This document shows, piece by piece, positions 17,436 to 30,016 of a stretch of DNA of 36,628 bases. The notes below the pieces were generated by a model. It did not search any database. It saw nothing but the letters and a program-made list of their open reading frames with translations, and had not been told where the DNA came from. The position numbers and the translations under genes are program-made. Location of the stretch: NCBI GenBank assembly GCA_024636755.1, contig JAGXGL010000022.1, positions 1 to 36,628 on the forward strand, written 5' to 3'. The stretch comes from Guyparkeria sp. (GTDB lineage Bacteria; Pseudomonadota; Gammaproteobacteria; Halothiobacillales; Halothiobacillaceae). Position 1 is the first letter of the stretch. The number at the start of each line of letters is the position of its first letter.

Positions 17436-17879
17436 TTACCAGGATTTGTAGGGCAGGAACTTGCCGTTCATGGTGATCACGACGCGATCGCCGGCGGGGT
17501 TGGCCTCGCGGTCGATATCGAGCGAGAAGTCGATCGCGCTCATGATGCCATCGCCGAATTCCTCGTGGATCAGCTCCTTCATGGTCGGACCGTAGACGCC
17601 CACGACCTCGTAGAGGCGATAGATCAACGGATCGGTGGGCACGGTCTGCTCCCAGGTCTTCATCGGGCAGTCCTCGATCGCGGCCTTGGCCTCGGCGGGC
17701 AGTTCGAGGATCGCGACGAGCTTGTCGGCGAACTCGGGCTTGAGGCTGTTCATGCCCAGGCAGGCCGAGGTCACGAAGGTCGGCGACAACCCCACCCCGC
17801 TGGCGATATCGGCCCAGGACAGGCCCAACTCGGTCTTCTTTTCCAGGATCAGGTCGGTCAGTGCGTGCTTGGTCATCAT
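17436..17879 (-). CDS. cynS: Cyanase (cyanate hydratase)
   Basis: This 147-residue protein is close to the 156 of E. coli CynS. An N-terminal helical domain (KTELGLSWADIASGVGLSPTF) is followed by the catalytic domain. The triad is visible as Arg88 and Glu91 in YRLYEVV and Ser114 in GDGIMSAIDF. Cyanase converts cyanate plus bicarbonate to ammonia and two CO2, as a cytoplasmic decamer. That consumes one bicarbonate and releases CO2, so proximity to the DAB pump and carbonic anhydrase makes biochemical sense. GGAG lies 8 bases before the first ATG; a second ATG follows directly. A palindromic element is inserted only 37 bp upstream of the start. Confidence 0.95.
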   Translation of the reverse strand: MMTKHALTDLILEKKTELGLSWADIASGVGLSPTFVTSACLGMNSLKPEFADKLVAILELPAEAKAAIEDCPMKTWEQTVPTDPLIYRLYEVVGVYGPTMKELIHEEFGDGIMSAIDFSLDIDREANPAGDRVVITMNGKFLPYKSW

Positions 17880-17916: not shown

Positions 17917-18182
17917 GGGAAGGTCTGCACGAATAGCCAACGCCTCTGCGGGTCGCCAGGCGTCCAGATGCAAGGCGCCGTGCGCGGGCAATGGCCCGTC
18001 CCATTGGCAAGCACGGCAACGCCGTAGATGGGCGCCTGGCGGCTCGCCCTGCGGGGCTTTCCGGCTTGACCGCCCTCAGTGTTACCGATCCTCGCCGGGC
18101 AATGAGCCCGCCTTCGGATTGATGCCTTGATGGCGAACAAGCCGGTAAGCCAGAGGCATTGGCTATTCGTGCAGACCTTCCC
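17917..18182. mobile_element. 266-bp palindromic element, copy A (MITE-like, three-way junction)
   Basis: The element is bounded by 31-bp terminal inverted repeats (17917-17947 and 18152-18182) beginning GGGAAGGTCTGCACGAAT and pairing with one mismatch. Inside are two long hairpins: 17948-18046 (99 nt) and 18055-18151 (20-nt arms around a 57-nt loop). They are separated by an 8-nt linker, so the whole can fold as a three-way junction. There is no transposase frame. The ends resemble those of IS5-family elements (from memory). The flanks end TT and begin TT, a possible 2-bp target duplication. A second copy with the same layout is at 22236. It lies between cynS and the sigma-54 operon, and separates cynS from any promoter further upstream. 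Confidence 0.8.
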
Positions 18183-18296
18183 TTGGTGGCCGGCAATGGC
18201 CACTGCCCGCTTCATTACAAGAAGCCTGCCAAGCCTCGTTTTTTTCGTTATTTCATAAGGTTAGACGGCCACCTCACCTGACGGCACACCCCGAAT

Positions 18297-18341
18297 CGGA
18301 CATTGTCCGCCCCGCACCGCACAAACATCGGACATTGTCCG
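18297..18341 (+). promoter_or_regulatory. Two upstream activator sites for the sigma-54 promoter
   Basis: Two identical palindromes CGGACATTGTCCG lie at 18297-18309 and 18329-18341, 32 bp apart, which is about three helical turns. They sit roughly 80-120 bp upstream of the -24 element, the usual range for enhancer-binding protein sites. The core GAC-N3-GTCCG recurs upstream of the ABC importer operon (26711-26721). Confidence 0.75.
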
Positions 18342-18416
18342 ACACTGCGCGCCCCACCACGGGGCGCCCCTGCCAAAAACGCTCTCAAACGACGCGTTGA
18401 CGCCATTCCCGGTTGT

Positions 18417-18432
18417 TGGCACAGCCTCTGCA
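18417..18432 (+). promoter_or_regulatory. Sigma-54 (-24/-12) promoter of the OsmC-flavoprotein operon
   Basis: TGGCACAGCCTCTGCA has the invariant GG and GC exactly 12 bp apart, with TGGCAC matching the -24 consensus perfectly and CTGC replacing TTGC at -12. It lies about 80 bp before the OsmC-like start. It is nearly the same as the promoter at 26860-26875. Confidence 0.85.
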
Positions 18433-18511: not shown

Positions 18512-19075
18512 ATGAGCACAGCAACCGCCCAACCCGTCGCCCCGTCCTGCATCCGCCAGGCGATCAAGGAAATCGATGCCGACGGCCTCAAGGCGCTGAG
18601 CGAGAAGGGCAAGGCCAACCCGGACGCGGTGGTCACGCTCAAGGCGAAGACCGTCTGCGAAGGCCGCTTTCGCAACCTGACCTACATCCGCGATCTCGAC
18701 CCGGTGGTCGTCGACGAGCCGCCGCACCTGCTGGGCGACGACACCGCCCCGAACCCGTCCGAGGCCACCCTGGCCGCCCTGGGCGCCTGTCTGGCCGTGG
18801 GCGTGCACGCCAATGCCACCGCTCGCCAGATCAAGATCAGCAAGCTCGAGCTGAACATGGAAGCGGACATCAACGTCACCGCCGTCTGGGGCACGGGGGA
18901 TCTCGACGAATCGAAGCCGCTGGGCTTTACCGCCATCCGCGTGTACTTCGACGTCGAGACGGTCGACCCGATCAGTGACGAGGACCTGCAGGACCTGCTG
19001 AATACCGCCGAGAAGTGGTCACCGGTGGCCAACACCATGACCCGCCCGGTCGACCTCTCCTGCCATCTCGCCTGA
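18512..19075 (+). CDS. OsmC-family protein lacking the second redox cysteine
   Basis: This 187-residue protein has the OsmC fold pattern: a beta strand region (VTLKAKTVCEGRFRNLTYI), then NPSEATLAALGACLAVGV with the first conserved cysteine (Cys93). OsmC/Ohr proteins reduce organic hydroperoxides with two cysteines. Here the second site reads AEKWSPVANT, with Ser170 where xCP is usual. Classical thiol peroxidase activity is therefore doubtful, and a binding or single-Cys role is more likely. CGGAG lies before the ATG. It is the first gene after the sigma-54 promoter and is followed after 58 bp by the flavoprotein gene. Confidence 0.85.
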   Translation: MSTATAQPVAPSCIRQAIKEIDADGLKALSEKGKANPDAVVTLKAKTVCEGRFRNLTYIRDLDPVVVDEPPHLLGDDTAPNPSEATLAALGACLAVGVHANATARQIKISKLELNMEADINVTAVWGTGDLDESKPLGFTAIRVYFDVETVDPISDEDLQDLLNTAEKWSPVANTMTRPVDLSCHLA

Positions 19076-19133: not shown

Positions 19134-20285
19134 ATGACCCTCGCTACCCACGACCCCGTGGCGGCTCGACCGAATGCGGCACCACCCGAGGTACCAAGCT
19201 TTCTGAAAACCGAGCCGCCGGCCGATCTCGACACGGTCATTCGCCGCGCCCTCAAGCCGAAGGTGATCGCGATCGACCACGGCGAATACCCCGCCGACCT
19301 GTTGCACGAAATCGGTGCGGCCGGCGCCTATCGCCACCACCTCGCCACCCAGAACCCGGCCGGCATGGATATCGCCGCGGCCATCGACGACATGGACCGC
19401 ATCTCGGCCGAGTGCATGTCGACCGGCTTCATGACCTGGTGTCAGGACGCCGTGGCCTGGTATGTCGAGAACGCCGACAACCAGCACTTGAAGGACACCG
19501 TCCTGCCGAAGCTCGCCAGCGGCGAACTGCTCGGCGGTACCGCCCTGTCCAACCCGATGAAGCACTTCGCCGGCATCGAGGACATCCTGCTGCATGGCGA
19601 GGAAACCGACGACGGCTTTATCGTCAATGGCAACCTGCCGTGGATCTCGAATCTGGGCGAATCCCACGTGTTCGGCTCGATCTTCCACGTTAAGGGCGAG
19701 CACCCGCGCGACGTGATGGCACTGGTCCACACCGACACACCAGGGCTGACGCTCAAGCAACTGGTCGAATTCACCGGCATGGAAGGCACCGGCACCTACG
19801 CCCTCTTCTTCGAGGATGTCTTCATCGCGAAGAACGAGATCATGGCCGACCCGGTCGGCCCGTTCCTCAATCGCATCAAGGCCGGCTTCGTGCTGCTGCA
19901 AGCGGGCATGGCCACCGGCGTGATCGAAGGCTGCATCCGCCTGTGCGAGGACGTCGAACCGCGTCTCGGTCACGTCAATTGCTACCTCGACGACCGCCCC
20001 GACGAACTGCGCGAGGCACTGGAAGACGCTCGCGCCCTGGTGCGCGACCTGGCCCAGGACGTACACAACCCCGACCCGGCCTACTTCCGTCAGGTACTGG
20101 AACTGCGGCTCGCCGGCTCGGAACTGGCCCTGCGCGCGGCCAACAGCGCCATGCTGCATACCGGCGCGAACGGCTACCTCGTCGATGCACCCGCCCAGCG
20201 CAAGCTGCGCGAGGCCTACTTCGTCGCCATCGTGACCCCGGCGATCAAGCACCTGAGGAAGGAAATCGAGGCGCTGATCGACTGA
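19134..20285 (+). CDS. Divergent acyl-CoA dehydrogenase-fold flavoprotein
   Basis: This 383-residue protein has the three-part acyl-CoA dehydrogenase layout: N-terminal helices, a middle beta domain (GELLGGTALSNPMKHFAG to GLTLKQLVEFTGMEGTGTY) and a C-terminal four-helix domain (NRIKAGFVLLQAGMATGVIEG and on). The usual middle-domain motif of CoA dehydrogenases (TEPxxGSD) is replaced by SNPMKHFAGIED, which suggests it does not act on ordinary acyl-CoA. Families on this fold include flavin-dependent monooxygenases such as DszC, the SfnB-type sulfur-acquisition proteins and nitroalkane oxidase. In this operon, with rubredoxin and its reductase, an oxidase or monooxygenase of a small N or S compound is a fair inference. 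No fatty-acid oxidation genes are nearby. Confidence 0.8.
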   Translation: MTLATHDPVAARPNAAPPEVPSFLKTEPPADLDTVIRRALKPKVIAIDHGEYPADLLHEIGAAGAYRHHLATQNPAGMDIAAAIDDMDRISAECMSTGFMTWCQDAVAWYVENADNQHLKDTVLPKLASGELLGGTALSNPMKHFAGIEDILLHGEETDDGFIVNGNLPWISNLGESHVFGSIFHVKGEHPRDVMALVHTDTPGLTLKQLVEFTGMEGTGTYALFFEDVFIAKNEIMADPVGPFLNRIKAGFVLLQAGMATGVIEGCIRLCEDVEPRLGHVNCYLDDRPDELREALEDARALVRDLAQDVHNPDPAYFRQVLELRLAGSELALRAANSAMLHTGANGYLVDAPAQRKLREAYFVAIVTPAIKHLRKEIEALID

Positions 20286-20434: not shown

Positions 20435-20605
20435 ATGACATCCAGTGCCCGATTCGACACCCGACTATCGCTGACCCTGTTCGGCTTAATGCTGGCCTGG
20501 CTGTGTATCGAGGCCATCGACGTGACCCGCCCCAAGGCCGAGCCGCGACCAACCGCCCCATACGAATTGAATGAATTCAAGGTGACCCGCCATGAACACG
20601 CCTGA
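20435..20605 (+). CDS. 56-residue single-pass membrane protein
   Basis: This short frame begins [20 protein letters not shown]. One hydrophobic helix (about residues 11-27) is followed by a polar, proline-rich tail ending FKVTRHEHA. Its last 14 bases overlap the start of the rubredoxin-reductase gene in another frame, so translation of the two is probably coupled. There is a 149-bp gap after the flavoprotein gene and only a weak GAGG upstream of the ATG. I do not recognise the family. A membrane anchor or partner for the rubredoxin electron-transfer protein is a guess from position. Confidence 0.55.
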
Positions 20606-21995
20606 AGAAGACATCCGCTGGATCTGCACCGTGTGCGGCTGGATCTATGACGAGGACGAGGGCGACCCGGACAGCGGGCTGGCGCCGGGCACCCGTTTCG
20701 AGGACATCCCTGACGACTGGTACTGCCCGCTGTGCGGCGTGACCAAGGCCGACTTCATGCCCCTGCACGAGTACGCCGCCCAGCGCGCCGTCGAGGCGAA
20801 TGCCCCGCGCCCCCGGGCCGTGCGGGGTGGCGTGGGCGGGCCCGACTCGGTGGTCATCATCGGCGCCGGCGTGGCCGGCTGGACGGTCGCCGAACAGTTG
20901 CGTGCCCGCGACCCCGACCGCCCGATCACGCTGATCAGCAACGACGAGGCGGCCGCCTACACCAAGCCGGGCCTGTCGATGGCGATCAGCCAGGGACGCG
21001 CGCCGACCGACCTGATCGAGCAGAGCGGGCCGACCAAGGCGGCCGCACTGGGCATCACCCTGCAACCGAACACCGCCGTGCTCGCCCTGAACACCGACGG
21101 CAAGCGACTGCTGACCACGCGCGGCCCGGTCCACTACGGGGACCTCGTGCTCGCGCTCGGTGCCCGCCAGCGTTTCCGCGCCTTCGATGGCGATGCCGCC
21201 AATCGCATTACGCGCCTCAATCACCTGGCCGCCTACCAGCGCCTGCGCGCTCGCCTCGATGCCGAGTCGCGGCATCTGACCATCATCGGCGCCGGGCTGA
21301 TCGGGGTGGAACTGGCCGAAGACCTGACCGCCGGCGGGCATCGCGTGACCGTGCTCGATCTCGGCGAGCGCATGCTCGATCGGCTCGCCCCCGCCCCGCT
21401 GGGCAACGAATTGGGGCAACACCTGGCGGCCAAGGGCGTGGATTTTCGCCCCGGCACCAGCCTCGCCCGCGTCGATCACGCCGACGGTCGCCTGAAGGTG
21501 ACGCTGACCAACGGCGGCGAGATCCACAGCGACGAGGTGATCTCGGCGATGGGACTGGTGCCCAACACCGCCCTGGCCCAGCGCGCCGGGCTGATCACCA
21601 ACCGCGGCATTCTCGCCTCGGCGCAAACCATGCAGACCAGCGATCCGCACGTCTACGCCGTTGGCGACTGCACCGAGATCGATGGCAACAGCTACTTCTT
21701 TATCGAGCCAATCCGTCGCATGGCCCAGACCGCCGCCGCGGCCCTGAACGGCGATTGCGAACCGTTCGAACACCGCCCGGCGGCCATCCGCATCAAGACA
21801 CCCAGCCTGCCGATCATGCTCTGCCCGCCCGATCGCAAGCTGGTTGACCTGGGCCGCTGGACGCCACACCCGGTCGACGCCGGCCAACGCAACGACTTTG
21901 TCAGCCGCGGCCAGTTGGCCGGTTATGCACTGGCCGGCAAGGCCGTCAGCGAACACGAATCCCTTTACCGGCGCGTCACGGGGCGCGCTAGTTGA
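20592..21995 (+). CDS. Rubredoxin fused to FAD-dependent NAD(P)H:rubredoxin reductase
   Basis: This 467-residue fusion has a rubredoxin domain at residues about 8-60, with iron ligands in CTVCGWIY and [12 protein letters not shown] pyridine-nucleotide-disulfide-type flavoprotein follows, with an FAD site [17 protein letters not shown] at about 87 and an NAD(P)H site [17 protein letters not shown] near 230. The second FAD contact is [10 protein letters not shown] near 355. The protein would pass electrons from NAD(P)H through FAD to its own iron centre and on to an acceptor. AlkT/RubA systems do this for alkane hydroxylases, but no alkB is present; the flavoprotein encoded upstream is the natural candidate. 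It overlaps the 56-residue gene and precedes the rhodanese by 54 bp. Confidence 0.93.
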
Positions 21996-24990: not shown

Positions 24991-26655
24991 TCACGGACGG
25001 CGCAACCCCAATTTGTCGAGGCGATAGCGAAACTGTCGGGTGGTCATCCCCAGGCGTTTGGCCGCCTGTGTCTTGTTGCCGCCGGTTTCGCGCAATGCCT
25101 CAAGCAGCGCATCGCCCTCGTCCTCGCGCACCCAGCGATACCGAGTGCCCACCTCAGCGGGCGGTGGCGGGTTAAATCGAGCCACTCCCGTGCCCGGCGC
25201 GCCTTCGGCATCCGTGGACCGATCGGGAACCGATTGTGCAGCGGCCGGGGCGCTGCCCGCCTCGAGGTGATCGGTGACATGGGATTCATGCGTCAGGATC
25301 AGCTTGATGTCGGCCACGGTGATCCAGCCATTCTGCGCCACCAGCACCGCGCGCTTGATCACGTTCTCCAACTGGCGAATGTTGCCGGGCCAGTTGTAGG
25401 CGGCCAGGCGATCGAGCACGCCGGTCTCGAAGGCGGCATTGCGATCGAATTCCTGGCTGGCAACCTGCAGGAAATGCCGCGCGAGGAGCTTCACGTCGCC
25501 ATCGCGCTCGCGCAGGGCCGGCAGGGAAATGGGAAAGACGTTCAGCCGGTAGAACAGGTCGATGCGAAAGCGCCCCTGGTTGACCGCCTCCTGCAGGTTC
25601 TTGTGCGTCGCGGCAATGATGCGCACGTCGACCGGCACGTCCTTGGTGCCACCCACCCGGTGGATGGTCTGTTTTTCCAGCACATGCAACAGCTTGGACT
25701 GCAAATCGAAGGCCAAGTCTCCGATCTCGTCGAGAAACAGCGTGCCACCGGAGGCGAGTTCGACACTGCCCTTCTTGGCCGACACCGCGCCGGTGAACGC
25801 GCCCTTCTCGTGGCCGAACAACTCGGATTCCAGCAGCGCGTCCGGGATGGCCGCGCAGTTGATCGCGATGAACGGCCCGTCGCAGCGCGGGCTGGTCAGG
25901 TGCACCATCCGGGCGAAGCGCTCCTTGCCGGTGCCGGACTCGCCGTTGAGCAGAACGGTGGCCTGGGTGGGCGAGACATGCAGGGTCTGGCGGACGGCCT
26001 GGCGCAGGGCCGGGCTCTCGCCGAGGATACCGTGACGCCCTTCCTGGTTGCTCGACAGGGCCTCGCGCAGGGATTCGTTCTCCTCGGCCAGCGCGGCGGT
26101 CTGCTCGCGGATCAGGTCGTCGACCTTGAGCACGCGGGCGATCAGCGCGGCCATGATGCGCAGCAACGTGATGTCGCGGTGTAGCGGGCGGTGGCGTTCG
26201 CGGATGCGATGGGCACCCAGCACCCCCATGGGCTGATCCTCGCTGAGGATGGGCACGGCGAGAAAGGCGACCGTCTCATCGGGCAACGTATCGCGTTCGA
26301 CCGCGCGGGTGAGATAGACCGGCTCTTCGTCGATGTTCTGCACCACCGCCACCTGCCCGGTGCGCATCACCCGACCGGTGACACCCTCGCCCAGCCGGTA
26401 GCGGCCACGTTCGCGCTCGGCGGACGCCAGCCCGTAGGCATAGCGGATCTCCATGAACTCGCTACTGGCATCGGGCAACACCACCCGGCCGCGATTGAGG
26501 CCGGTGATCTGCGAGAGCAGCCGCAGCATGCGCCCGATCACGGTGTCGGGATCGTTCACGTGCGAGAGCCATTGCGTGGCCTCGTGGACGACCAGCAGTT
26601 CCGCATCGGCGCTGTCGGCGCGTGCCGACGGTTGAATGACTTGCGCGTGGGTCAT
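24991..26655 (-). CDS. Sigma-54-dependent activator (GAF-AAA+-Fis)
   Basis: This 554-residue enhancer-binding protein resembles NifA/NorR types. Residues about 25-175 form a GAF sensor domain. Residues 205-440 form the AAA+ core, with Walker A GESGTGKE (238-245), the sigma-54 contact loop GAFTGA (285-290) and Walker B GGTLFLDE (303-310). A Fis-type helix-turn-helix ends the protein (NKTQAAKRLGMTTRQFRYRL). With an intact GAFTGA loop it should activate sigma-54 promoters. Two such promoters lie in this window (18417 and 26860), one of them directly divergent, so it is the likely regulator of both. GGAG precedes the start at 26655. The GAF ligand is not predictable from sequence. Confidence 0.93.
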   Translation of the reverse strand: MTHAQVIQPSARADSADAELLVVHEATQWLSHVNDPDTVIGRMLRLLSQITGLNRGRVVLPDASSEFMEIRYAYGLASAERERGRYRLGEGVTGRVMRTGQVAVVQNIDEEPVYLTRAVERDTLPDETVAFLAVPILSEDQPMGVLGAHRIRERHRPLHRDITLLRIMAALIARVLKVDDLIREQTAALAEENESLREALSSNQEGRHGILGESPALRQAVRQTLHVSPTQATVLLNGESGTGKERFARMVHLTSPRCDGPFIAINCAAIPDALLESELFGHEKGAFTGAVSAKKGSVELASGGTLFLDEIGDLAFDLQSKLLHVLEKQTIHRVGGTKDVPVDVRIIAATHKNLQEAVNQGRFRIDLFYRLNVFPISLPALRERDGDVKLLARHFLQVASQEFDRNAAFETGVLDRLAAYNWPGNIRQLENVIKRAVLVAQNGWITVADIKLILTHESHVTDHLEAGSAPAAAQSVPDRSTDAEGAPGTGVARFNPPPPAEVGTRYRWVREDEGDALLEALRETGGNKTQAAKRLGMTTRQFRYRLDKLGLRRP

Positions 26656-26710
26656 GGGGCAACTCCGGGCGAATAGATGACATTCCCGGAAGTGCAAGAA
26701 ACAGGCCCAT

Positions 26711-26832
26711 GACTTTGTCCGCCATTGGCGGGCATTGCGCACCGGCGGCGCTCATGCCGACGCACCAAGAACGGGACAAACCGCCCACCAGCGCTCCTTC
26801 GTGGTGCGAAAACACGCCATTTTCCGACAAAA
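26711..26832 (+). promoter_or_regulatory. Candidate activator sites upstream of the ABC importer operon
   Basis: GACTTTGTCCG at 26711-26721 differs at one base from the GACATTGTCCG core of the sites at 18297 and 18329, and lies about 140 bp upstream of the -24 box. Half-site-like GGGACAAACC (26773-26782) and CCGACAAAAC (26823-26832) follow. The next 16 bp contain CCGCCATTGGCGGGCATTG, similar to the 24-bp palindrome at 11043. Confidence 0.55.
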
Positions 26833-26859
26833 CGCGGCTATCTAACGTAAACGGGCAGT

Positions 26860-26875
26860 GTGGCACGGCATCTGC
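26860..26875 (+). promoter_or_regulatory. Sigma-54 (-24/-12) promoter of the ABC importer operon
   Basis: TGGCACGGCATCTGCA has GG and GC exactly 12 bp apart and a perfect TGGCAC. It matches the promoter at 18417 in 14 of 16 bases. Transcription would begin near 26886, about 30 bases before the first gene. Confidence 0.88.
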
Positions 26876-26914
26876 AACCTCGAGGTCGTCACTCACCGAC
26901 CCGAGAACCAAATC

Positions 26915-28291
26915 ATGTCCACATTCGATAACCCGTTCGACCCCAACAAGTCCCTGCATCGTGGCTGCACCTGCGGCAAGCACGCCAACCAGGCCGACCA
27001 CAACGCGGCGATCACCGCCACCCCGAACCCGACGGACGAGGAGCAGGCCCTTAATCGCGCCGTCGAATCGTCGGTGATGCGCTCGCTGTTCCCGGAAGAC
27101 CGGACGCGTCGGAATTTCCTCAAGGCCGTAGGCGTGAGCACGGCGATGGCCGCCGTCTCGACCTTCTTCCCGATGGCCGCCGCCAAGGCCGTTGCCGCCG
27201 ACCCGGTCGGGCCGCTGGAGAAAAAGAAGCTCAAGGTGGGCTTTATCCCGATCACCTGCGCCACGCCGATCATCATGGCCCACCCGATGGGCTTCTACGA
27301 GCGTGAAGGACTCGACGTCGAGGTGGTCAAGACCGCCGGCTGGGCGCTGATCCGCGACAACGTCAACAACGGCCAGCTCGATGCCTCGCACATGCTCTCG
27401 CCGATGCCGATTTCCGCTTCGCTCGGGATCGGTGCCCAACAGCAGGACACCTACGTCGCCACCATTCAGAACATCAATGGCCAGGCGATCACGATGCACA
27501 ACAAGCACAAGGACAATCGCGATCCGAGCAACTGGAAGGGCATGACCTTCGGCATTCCCTACGACCACTCGATGCACAACCTGTTGCTGCGCTACTACCT
27601 CGCCGAGCACGGCGTCGACCCGGACCAGGATGTCCAGCTCAAGGTCATCGCCCCGCCGGAGATGGTCGCCAACCTCAAGGCCGGCAACATCGACGGCTTC
27701 CTCGGCCCCGAGCCGTTCAACCAGCGCGCGGTCTACGAGGGCGCGGGCTTTATCCACGTGCTCTCGAAAGACCTGTGGGACGGCCACCCCTGCTGTGCCT
27801 TCGGTGCGACCCGGTCGTTCGTCGAGGAGAACCCCAACACCTTCTCCGCGCTGTTCCGCGCCATCGCCAGCGCCACGGTCTACGCGCACAAGAAGGAGAA
27901 CCGCCCCGAGATCATCGAGGCGATCGCCCCGGCCAACTACCTCAACCAGCCGAAGATCGTGCTCGACCAGGTAATGACCGGCCGCTACGCCGACGGGCTG
28001 GGCAACATCATCAACGAGCCCGAGCGCGCCGACTTCGACCCGTTCCCGTGGGAATCGATGGGCGTGTGGATCCTCACTCAGATGAAGCGCTGGGGTTACA
28101 TCAAGGAAGACATCGACTACGCCGACATCGCCGAGGAAATCTTCCGGGCGACCGACGCGCGCCAGCGTCTCGCCGAGATGGGCCTGCCGGCACCGGAGAT
28201 CAACAGCAAGAAGCACACGATCATGGGCAAGGTCTTCGACCCGACCAAGCCGCAGGAATACCTCGAATCGTTCGAGATCGGGAGGAGTTAA
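26915..28291 (+). CDS. Tat-exported ABC substrate-binding protein (NrtA/CmpA/SsuA class) with Cys/His N-terminal extension
   Basis: This 458-residue protein has a ligand-binding region typical of the NrtA/CmpA group (LKVGFIPITCATPIIMAHPMGFYEREGL, DASHMLSPMPISASLGIGAQ). Residues 63-70 read RTRRNFLK, a near-perfect twin-arginine motif followed by a hydrophobic stretch, so the folded protein should be exported to the periplasm by Tat. Unusually, about 60 residues precede the motif, including a Cys/His cluster (C18, C20, H23, H29 in HRGCTCGKHANQADH). The substrate could be nitrate, cyanate, bicarbonate or a sulfonate; neither motifs nor context decide. It is the first gene of the sigma-54 operon, 3 bp before the permease gene. 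Confidence 0.9.
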   Translation: MSTFDNPFDPNKSLHRGCTCGKHANQADHNAAITATPNPTDEEQALNRAVESSVMRSLFPEDRTRRNFLKAVGVSTAMAAVSTFFPMAAAKAVAADPVGPLEKKKLKVGFIPITCATPIIMAHPMGFYEREGLDVEVVKTAGWALIRDNVNNGQLDASHMLSPMPISASLGIGAQQQDTYVATIQNINGQAITMHNKHKDNRDPSNWKGMTFGIPYDHSMHNLLLRYYLAEHGVDPDQDVQLKVIAPPEMVANLKAGNIDGFLGPEPFNQRAVYEGAGFIHVLSKDLWDGHPCCAFGATRSFVEENPNTFSALFRAIASATVYAHKKENRPEIIEAIAPANYLNQPKIVLDQVMTGRYADGLGNIINEPERADFDPFPWESMGVWILTQMKRWGYIKEDIDYADIAEEIFRATDARQRLAEMGLPAPEINSKKHTIMGKVFDPTKPQEYLESFEIGRS

Positions 28292-28294
28292 GCC

Positions 28295-29137
28295 ATGAGC
28301 CAGTCACTCAGCCTACGGGCCGGCCTCGTCTCCATCCTCATCCTGCTTGCCTTCATCGGCGCGTGGTGGGGGGCGACCCTGCCCACCCAGGTCGATCTGG
28401 GCGACATGGACCCCGAATACGCCGCCATGATGGGTCTCGATACCACCCAGGAGTCGGACATCCCGACGCCGGGGCACATCGGCTCGGCGATCTGGACGCA
28501 TCTCTCGGACCCGTTCTACGTCAAGGGCTCCAACGACATGGGCATCGGCATCCAGCTGGCCCATTCGCTCTGGCGGGTGCTCGCCGGCTTTGCGTTGGCC
28601 GCGATGGTCGCCGTGCCGCTGGGCTTTCTGATCGGCATGTCGCCGCTGATGCACAAGGCGCTGGACCCGTACATCCAGATCCTGAAACCGATCTCGCCGC
28701 TGGCCTGGATGCCGCTGGCGCTCTACATCATCCAGGACGCCTCGATCTCGTCGATCTTCGTGATCTTCATCTGTTCGATCTGGCCAATGATGGTGAACAC
28801 CGCCTACGGCGTGTCCTCGGTCCGCGACGACTGGCTCGCCGTGGCCAAGACCCTCGAGGTCGGCCCGATCAAGAAGGCGTTCAAGGTAATCCTGCCGGCG
28901 GCCGCCCCGACGATTCTCACCGGCATGCGCATCTCGATGGGCATCGCCTGGCTGGTGATCGTCGCCGCGGAAATGCTCGTCGGTGGCACCGGCATCGGCT
29001 ACTTCATCTGGAACGAGTGGAACAACCTCGATCTCGCCAACGTGATCTTCGCCATCCTGCTGATCGGCGTGGTCGGCATGATCCTCGACATGATCTTCGG
29101 CCTGCTCGGCAAGGTCGTCAGCTATAAGGAGGTCTGA
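28295..29137 (+). CDS. ABC transporter permease (NrtB/CynB/SsuC class)
   Basis: This 280-residue inner-membrane protein has about six TM segments and the EAA-type coupling loop (LAVAKTLEVGPIKKAFKVILP), which docks on the ATPase. An approximately 60-residue periplasmic stretch follows the first TM (PTQVDLGDMDPEYAAMMGLD...), seen in the NrtB branch of the family. GGAGGAG lies before the ATG and only 3 bp separate it from the binding-protein gene. The ATPase gene starts 3 bp after its stop. It works as a homodimer that translocates the anion delivered by the binding protein. Confidence 0.93.
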   Translation: MSQSLSLRAGLVSILILLAFIGAWWGATLPTQVDLGDMDPEYAAMMGLDTTQESDIPTPGHIGSAIWTHLSDPFYVKGSNDMGIGIQLAHSLWRVLAGFALAAMVAVPLGFLIGMSPLMHKALDPYIQILKPISPLAWMPLALYIIQDASISSIFVIFICSIWPMMVNTAYGVSSVRDDWLAVAKTLEVGPIKKAFKVILPAAAPTILTGMRISMGIAWLVIVAAEMLVGGTGIGYFIWNEWNNLDLANVIFAILLIGVVGMILDMIFGLLGKVVSYKEV

Positions 29138-29140
29138 AAC

Positions 29141-30016
29141 ATGACTACCCCCAGCTTTATCCAGGTCGATGGCCTGGAAAAGACCTTTCCCGGCCCGGCC
29201 GGCCAGGAACCGGTCACCGTGTTCCAGAACCTCGACTTCGAAATTGAGAAGGGCGAGTTCGTCTGCCTGATCGGTCACTCGGGTTGCGGCAAGTCGACCA
29301 TCCTCAACATCCTTGCCGGACTGGATGCCGCGAGCGACGGCTACGTGTTCATGGAGAACAAGGAGCTCACCGGCCCGGGCCTCGACCGCGGGGTGGTCTT
29401 CCAGGGACACGCCCTGATGCCGTGGCTGACGGTGCGCGAGAACGTCGCCTTCGCGGTGAAGTCCCGCTTCAAGCGACACTCCAAGGACGAGGTGAACGCA
29501 CAGGTGGAGAAGTACGTCGACATGGTCGGCTTGACCCCGGCGATCGACAAGAAGCCCCACCAGCTCTCCGGCGGCATGCGACAGCGGGTCGGCATCGCCC
29601 GGGCCTTTGCCATCGAACCGAAGATGCTGTTGATGGACGAGCCGTTCGGCGCGCTGGATGCCCTGACCCGCGGGGTGATCCAGGACGAGCTGCTGGCGAT
29701 CTGCCAGGCCACCAGCCAGACGGTGTTCATGATCACCCACGACGTCGACGAGGCGATCCTGCTGGCCGACAAGATCCTGTTGATGACCACCGGCCCGTTC
29801 GCCGAGGTCGCCGAGGTGGCCTACAACCCGCTGCACAAGCCGCGCTCACGCCAGGAAATGCACCACGACGGGCACTACTACCCGTTCCGCAACCACCTGA
29901 TGGACTTCCTGGTCAACGGTCCGGGCACGCCCTACAGCGACAAGGCAACCGACGGCACTCCGCCGGCCCTGGACAAGGCCCCGCGCACCGGGCCCAGGCG
30001 CGTGGTGAGCGCCTGA
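29141..30016 (+). CDS. ABC transporter ATPase (NrtD/CynD/SsuB class)
   Basis: This 291-residue ATPase has Walker A GHSGCGKST, Q-loop VVFQGHALMPWLTV, signature LSGGMRQRV, Walker B LLMDEPFGALDAL and an H-loop in FMITHDVDEAI. The C-terminal extension (GTPYSDKATDGTP...) has no obvious regulatory domain, unlike NrtC. A perfect AAGGAGGT precedes the ATG. It powers the permease encoded 3 bp upstream. It ends the operon; a terminator follows 29 bp on. Confidence 0.95.
   Translation: MTTPSFIQVDGLEKTFPGPAGQEPVTVFQNLDFEIEKGEFVCLIGHSGCGKSTILNILAGLDAASDGYVFMENKELTGPGLDRGVVFQGHALMPWLTVRENVAFAVKSRFKRHSKDEVNAQVEKYVDMVGLTPAIDKKPHQLSGGMRQRVGIARAFAIEPKMLLMDEPFGALDALTRGVIQDELLAICQATSQTVFMITHDVDEAILLADKILLMTTGPFAEVAEVAYNPLHKPRSRQEMHHDGHYYPFRNHLMDFLVNGPGTPYSDKATDGTPPALDKAPRTGPRRVVSA

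Follow-up and report, generated by a model that had tools for sequence, protein, structure and literature searches.

Two arrays of a candidate activator palindrome flanked by sigma-54-type promoters in Guyparkeria and their probable link to cyanate utilisation

Two stretches of intergenic DNA in the window analysed here, a 36,628-nucleotide contig sequence from the salt-loving sulfur bacterium Guyparkeria sp., each carry a clear -24/-12 sigma-54 promoter, one before an operon starting with an OsmC-family gene and one before an ABC importer. An earlier note on this DNA had proposed that a palindrome of the form GAC-N3-GTCCG is an activator site shared by both. This raises the question of whether the two loci are indeed controlled together and, if so, by which activator and in response to what. 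The genes involved are as follows.

17436..17879, minus strand: cyanase CynS (TIGR00673 and PRK02866 above cut-off)
18512..19075, plus strand: OsmC-family protein (PF02566)
19134..20285, plus strand: acyl-CoA-dehydrogenase-like (ACAD-like) flavoprotein (weak Pfam ACAD matches; PDB relatives are acyl-CoA dehydrogenases)
20592..21995, plus strand: rubredoxin fused to a rubredoxin-reductase-like FAD oxidoreductase (PF00301, PF07992, PF18113)
24991..26655, minus strand: CynF-like enhancer-binding protein, GAF - AAA+ - Fis HTH (Pfam PF00158, 233.6 bits; PF02954, 46 bits)
26915..28291, plus strand: CynA-like substrate-binding protein, NrtA/CmpA family (Pfam NMT1_2; cynS neighbourhood in most relatives)
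28295..29137, plus strand: CynB-like ABC permease, NrtB family (TIGR01183 above cut-off)
29141..30016, plus strand: CynD-like ABC ATPase, NrtCD family (TIGR01184 above cut-off)

The regulator has an AAA+ sigma-54 interaction domain and a Fis-type HTH, with KGAFTGA in its translation, and RpoN (PF04552) is encoded in G000 and nine other Guyparkeria genomes. It is divergent from a cynABD-type transporter and has a cyanase gene in the same neighbourhood. The "importer" is accordingly of the CynABD type, and its neighbouring activator resembles CynF.

As for the palindrome itself, the positions given by the earlier note were borne out. CGGACATTGTCCG is found at 18297-18309 and 18329-18341, before the OsmC operon, in copies exactly 32 bp apart, while GACTTTGTCCG at 26711-26721, with one mismatch to GACATTGTCCG, lies 139 bp (about 140 bp had been claimed) before the importer promoter TGGCACGGCATCTGC (26861-26875). 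The only other perfect -24/-12 match in the window is TGGCACAGCCTCTGC at 18417-18431. Counted by motif matches, the loose GAC-N3-GTCCG shows no excess over chance in the window or in its own genome. GACNNNGTCCG with at most one mismatch has 66 matches in the window, versus 69.6 expected; CGGACNNNGTCCG occurs at 5 places in the window's own assembly (1.78 Mb, 79% complete, genus Guyparkeria), versus 9 for a reversed control; and TGGCACN5YTGC occurs 14 times, versus 14 for its control. Since the loose motif is at chance level, frequency alone supports nothing, and the case rests on comparison between genomes.

An unseeded palindromic EM search of 17 intergenic regions from 9 Halothiobacillaceae genomes converged on GGACAWTGTCC. 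Its log-likelihood was 124, versus 50.1 (sd 8.7, maximum 80.3) in 20 shuffled sets, the regions not being fully independent because some of the nine representative genomes are congeneric. The sites seen earlier are thus real, but the consensus proposed for them was too loose, the centre being CAWTG and the full unit GGACAWTGTCC. GAC-N3-GTCCG and TGGCAC-N5-[TC]TGC, the two patterns suggested for a genome scan, both occur at chance level, whereas GGACAWTGTCC falls mostly in the cynS/osmC spacer. Scored with the resulting matrix, both loci hold arrays of units, which are palindromic and listed without strand.

18298..18308: activator unit U1, GGACATTGTCC (matrix score 16.2; 10/11 bases invariant in 10 Guyparkeria genomes)
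18330..18340: activator unit U2, GGACATTGTCC, 32 bp from U1 (matrix score 16.2; aligned in 10/10 Guyparkeria)
18340..18350: weaker unit U3, CGACACTGCGC, adjoining U2 at a centre spacing of 10 bp (matrix score 6.1)
26710..26740: importer three-unit array, TGACTTTGTCC / CGCCATTGGCG / GGGCATTGCGC, centres 26715, 26725 and 26735 (scores 9.4, 8.5 and 9.6)

The pair described before the OsmC operon is therefore part of an array of about three units once the weak U3 is added; relatives have a stronger version of this unit (CGACAATGCCC in SCN-R1; matrix score 12.6 in G001). Likewise, what had been taken for a single importer site is present but is really a three-unit array at 26710-26740, its units being weak (8.5-9.6) compared with U1 and U2 (16.2). 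Units are mostly spaced 9-11 bp apart, the other spacings being about 20, 32 and 45 bp. Overall, their distances are helically phased (Rayleigh p 3e-7 at 10.5 bp), largely because of the 9-10 bp class; for units spaced more widely than 9-11 bp (n=15), support for phasing is weak (p 0.05 at 10.5 bp).

These arrays are conserved. Searches of 10 other genomes of the genus recovered the importer in 9 and the OsmC gene in as many; outside the genus, both occur in several further Halothiobacillaceae and in one additional family (G052). One locus, L061, was left out because its OsmC match begins at residue 23 and the upstream DNA looked unrelated. In the genus alignments, palindromes and promoters stand out as conserved blocks: 25/30 bases are invariant in 10 Guyparkeria at the importer array (26711-26740), 16/16 at its promoter and 10/11 at U1, versus 113/259 and 116/300 bases for the whole aligned regions.

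The cynS/osmC spacer has other features as well. A GCCCC-N5-GGGGC inverted repeat at about 18356-18370, lying after the array and before the osmC promoter, is kept in Guyparkeria, in two species as the variant GCACC-N5-GG[AG]GC. At 17917-18182, between cynS and its sigma-54-like promoter, lies a MITE-like element of 266 bp with 32-bp terminal inverted repeats that are 97% identical. The window's own assembly contains at least 5 further near-full-length copies (76-91% identity) and many partial ones, and the corresponding spacer is about 265 bp shorter in most other Guyparkeria.

Each array is flanked by promoter elements on both sides, and the region upstream of cynABD holds one further candidate site.

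18216..18231, minus strand: sigma-54-like promoter facing cynS, divergent, TGGCAGGCTTCTTGTA, with GT rather than GC at -12 (equivalent element in every Halothiobacillaceae cynS/osmC spacer examined)
18417..18432, plus strand: -24/-12 sigma-54 promoter of the osmC operon, TGGCACAGCCTCTGCA (score 10.5/12; 14/16 invariant in Guyparkeria)
26693..26708, minus strand: sigma-54-like promoter of the activator gene (cynF), divergent, GGGCCTGTTTCTTGCA (score 9.5/12)
26793..26807, plus strand: imperfect NtrC-like site, GCTCCTTCGTGGTGC (10/14 versus TGCACCA-N3-TGGTGCA; 12/100 shuffles as good)
26861..26876, plus strand: -24/-12 sigma-54 promoter of cynABD, TGGCACGGCATCTGCA (score 11.5/12; 16/16 invariant in Guyparkeria)

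The two promoters named in the earlier note were confirmed, but they are probably only half of the picture, since two further, divergent sigma-54-like elements, facing cynF and cynS, flank the arrays. GG-N10-GC with TGGCAC and TTGC elements is present at the cynA, osmC and cynF promoters. In a both-strand scan of the cynF/cynA spacers, GG-N10-GC with TTGC precedes the activator gene in 17/17 Halothiobacillaceae and was not found in G052. On the other side, TGGCA[AG]G-N4-TTG[AT] precedes cynS in each of the 16 cynS/osmC spacers listed for Halothiobacillaceae; the canonical GC at -12 is absent there, being replaced by GT or GA in this family, while the element itself is conserved, and some other families have a canonical -24/-12 element before cynS or the activator gene. 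Missing partners aside, promoters flank both arrays in all recoverable Halothiobacillaceae spacers (17 per type). This layout suggests that the arrays probably serve four promoters, each array lying between two divergent ones (cynF and cynABD; cynS and osmC), and that the divergent cynF and cynS promoters would be used as well. The importer array is only 9-29 bp from the -24 element of cynF, and binding so close to it could repress that promoter instead of activating it. As for the NtrC-like site, ntrC is encoded in the genome and clear sites (13/14) are found at about the same place upstream of cynABD in two other genera, but in Guyparkeria a role for NtrC in the system is only suggestive.

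How far would such a regulon extend? The exact word GGACAWTGTCC turns up 20 times across 11 Guyparkeria genomes; 15 copies are in the cynS/osmC spacer and five are inside ORFs, the latter with no convincing sigma-54 promoter nearby. When genomes were searched with a 21-bp array profile (prefiltered, 150 candidates scored per genome), both loci ranked first in every Guyparkeria genome with matches. The profile was trained partly on these loci, which match by construction, so that the informative part is the lack of other conserved matches: further matches lacked conservation across species, and no sigma-54 promoter was close to any of the five extra ones examined. Weak units would escape both the word and the profile searches. 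The suggestion that the consensus could define the regulon of the activator thus holds within the genus, where two loci come top and extra matches are unconserved. That regulon would comprise cyanate utilisation together with the OsmC/acyl-CoA-dehydrogenase-like/rubredoxin-reductase module.

Does the motif travel with the activator? We applied the matrix, trained on Halothiobacillaceae only, to nine outside loci that were excluded from training and have an activator 48-59% identical and an osmC gene nearby. It found sites upstream of osmC (Fisher p 3.8e-10 versus shuffles), with one perfect and two near-perfect units on the Marinobacter plasmid pMAD49a. On 12 cynABDS loci where the activator is another one or is missing, the matrix gave no signal (p 0.45). 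Loci whose activators are 44-50% identical mostly lack the GGACAWTGTCC-type motif; at beta-proteobacterial ones (46-50% identity) the signal is marginal (p 0.01) and TTGTTAACAA-like sites can be seen by eye, which suggests that site and protein have drifted together.

These comparisons bear on two other explanations. That the palindromes arose by chance in a GC-rich genome agrees with the chance frequency of the loose GAC-N3-GTCCG in window and genome, but it is extremely improbable given conservation in ten species, unseeded discovery above all shuffles and independent transfer; for the cynS/osmC pair, these same findings refute it. It is also quite improbable, if less drastically so, that the sites belong to a different regulator, such as a repressor of the OsmC operon, and are conserved with the cluster by chance. 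Repressors, too, typically bind short two-fold palindromes, but the motif is found at independent loci with activator orthologs while being absent from cynABDS loci that have another activator or lack one, its positions upstream of -24/-12 elements suit sigma-54 enhancers, and the regulator gene that adjoins the importer array is the activator itself. Conservation, unseeded discovery, matrix transfer and absence with other activators all support the idea of an activator site shared by both loci, as predicted from the DNA.

Some observations on these relatives stand apart. L133, L134, L138 and similar alpha-proteobacterial cynABDS loci carry another sigma-54 activator, and TACGAAATTTCGTA-like palindromes can be made out by eye ahead of cynA, which points to a second control system in parallel. 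The recognition helix (RQ[FL]RYR versus RQ[FL]NYR) seemed to track the outer bases of the palindrome, but L181 and L187 are exceptions and we make no such claim. Two activator orthologs, L168 (G217) and L174 (G081), have one in-frame stop within the match (TAG and TAA, respectively). On the Klebsiella pneumoniae plasmid pRHBSTW-00973_5 (L180), a 44% identical activator lies beside two ABC transporters and genes for a carbon-nitrogen hydrolase and nitrile hydratase. At L076 and L077, a rhodanese-like gene seems, from reading the DNA by eye, to end directly upstream of cynA, which suggests a link to cyanide or thiocyanate.

If the sites are shared, the regulon might nonetheless not concern cyanate; the NrtA/CmpA-type importer would then transport some other small compound, such as bicarbonate or nitrate, and the signal would be a different one. 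The permease and ATPase do match nitrate-transporter models, DabA/DabB-like and carbonic-anhydrase genes are nearby in the window, some orthologous clusters have only a distant substrate-binding protein (25-27% identity), and the activator relative on the Klebsiella plasmid sits among nitrile-related genes. We nevertheless regard this as unlikely, since cynS directly follows the close importer relatives in most alpha- and beta-proteobacterial loci, which is the studied cynABDS order (PMC6627978), and the second array is shared by cynS itself. The activator, osmC, ACAD, rubredoxin-reductase and cynS genes co-occur across families, including on pMAD49a, where the activator, osmC, ACAD and rubredoxin-reductase genes form a consecutive same-strand series with cynS last.

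Together, these findings make it very probable that the palindromes serve as upstream activator sequences for the CynF-like sigma-54 activator, which is encoded divergently (24991-26655). Dimers of its Fis-type C-terminal domain would sit on about three units (GGACAWTGTCC or weaker variants), mostly in helical phase, their occupancy would build the AAA+ oligomer, and the GAFTGA loop of this oligomer would open sigma-54 polymerase at the flanking -24/-12 promoters. One array would serve cynF and cynABD, and the other cynS and the osmC-ACAD-rubredoxin reductase operon. The inducer would be cyanate, or something metabolised to cyanate, sensed by the GAF domain, and NtrC may add nitrogen control at cynABD. 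Binding, activation, inducer, oligomeric state and the activity of the divergent cynF and cynS promoters are what we infer from gene content and DNA signals. More tentatively, and with the odds somewhat against it, the OsmC/ACAD-like/rubredoxin-reductase operon could be a flavin-dependent oxidative module that makes or detoxifies a cyanate precursor for CynABD/CynS, both arrays being bidirectional enhancers acting on four sigma-54 promoters, including that of the activator itself.

For sulfur-oxidising bacteria, among which the Guyparkeria isolate SCN-R1 makes cyanate from thiocyanate (PMC6504805), this yields a predicted binding sequence that can be tested and a compact regulon of four probable promoters for the use of cyanate. 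In addition, a module of OsmC, ACAD and rubredoxin proteins that is conserved with the activator across several families becomes tied to cyanate metabolism, which offers a route to its role. The control of cynABDS by CynF and the sigma-54 regulatory principle are well known. An open-access literature search on the motif and on the OsmC/ACAD/cyanase cluster found nothing relevant; within that literature, binding sequence, divergent layout and OsmC link all seem to be new.

Among characterised activators, NifA is the best NCBIfam match and has the same domain order, but the protein falls below the curated cut-off (TIGR01817, 455.2 versus 528.85 bits), and the cluster lacks nif genes. NifA itself is known to recognise TGT-N10-ACA. 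The palindrome here also differs from NorR sites, and its unit spacing is mostly 10 bp. NorR, a GAF-type activator, requires three enhancer sites in the divergent intergenic region upstream of norVW (PMC2941729), which the three-unit arrays and GAF-AAA+-HTH architecture recall; the third protein of the osmC operon is, like NorW, a rubredoxin-reductase relative. However, our activator is below the cut-off of the NorR model (NF003451, 327.7 versus 476 bits) and has different neighbours. In a comparative study, cyanate lyase (COG1513) is among the enriched sigma-54 targets in alpha- and gamma-proteobacteria, in a passage that names no activator, site or operon layout (PMC12316311).

The closest parallel is CynF of Pseudomonas pseudoalcaligenes (oleovorans) CECT5344. 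This sigma-54 activator of the Fis family is encoded divergently from cynABDS, an operon that requires it and is cyanate-induced and ammonium-repressed (PMC6627978). In its main text, that paper gives no binding sequence for the activator. Our comparison covers domains and gene neighbourhood. In both systems, a sigma-54 Fis-family regulator lies divergent to an ABC transporter for cyanate, cynA is preceded by a putative sigma-54 promoter, the cynF-cynA intergenic region is of similar length (268 bp in CECT5344, 259 bp here), and the cyanase is under the same regulator as the transporter, as reported there (PMC6627978) and proposed here. In contrast to CECT5344, cynS in Guyparkeria is detached from cynABD and divergent from the OsmC operon, and the cynF promoter is sigma-54-like, whereas a sigma-70 promoter was reported for CECT5344 (PMC6627978).
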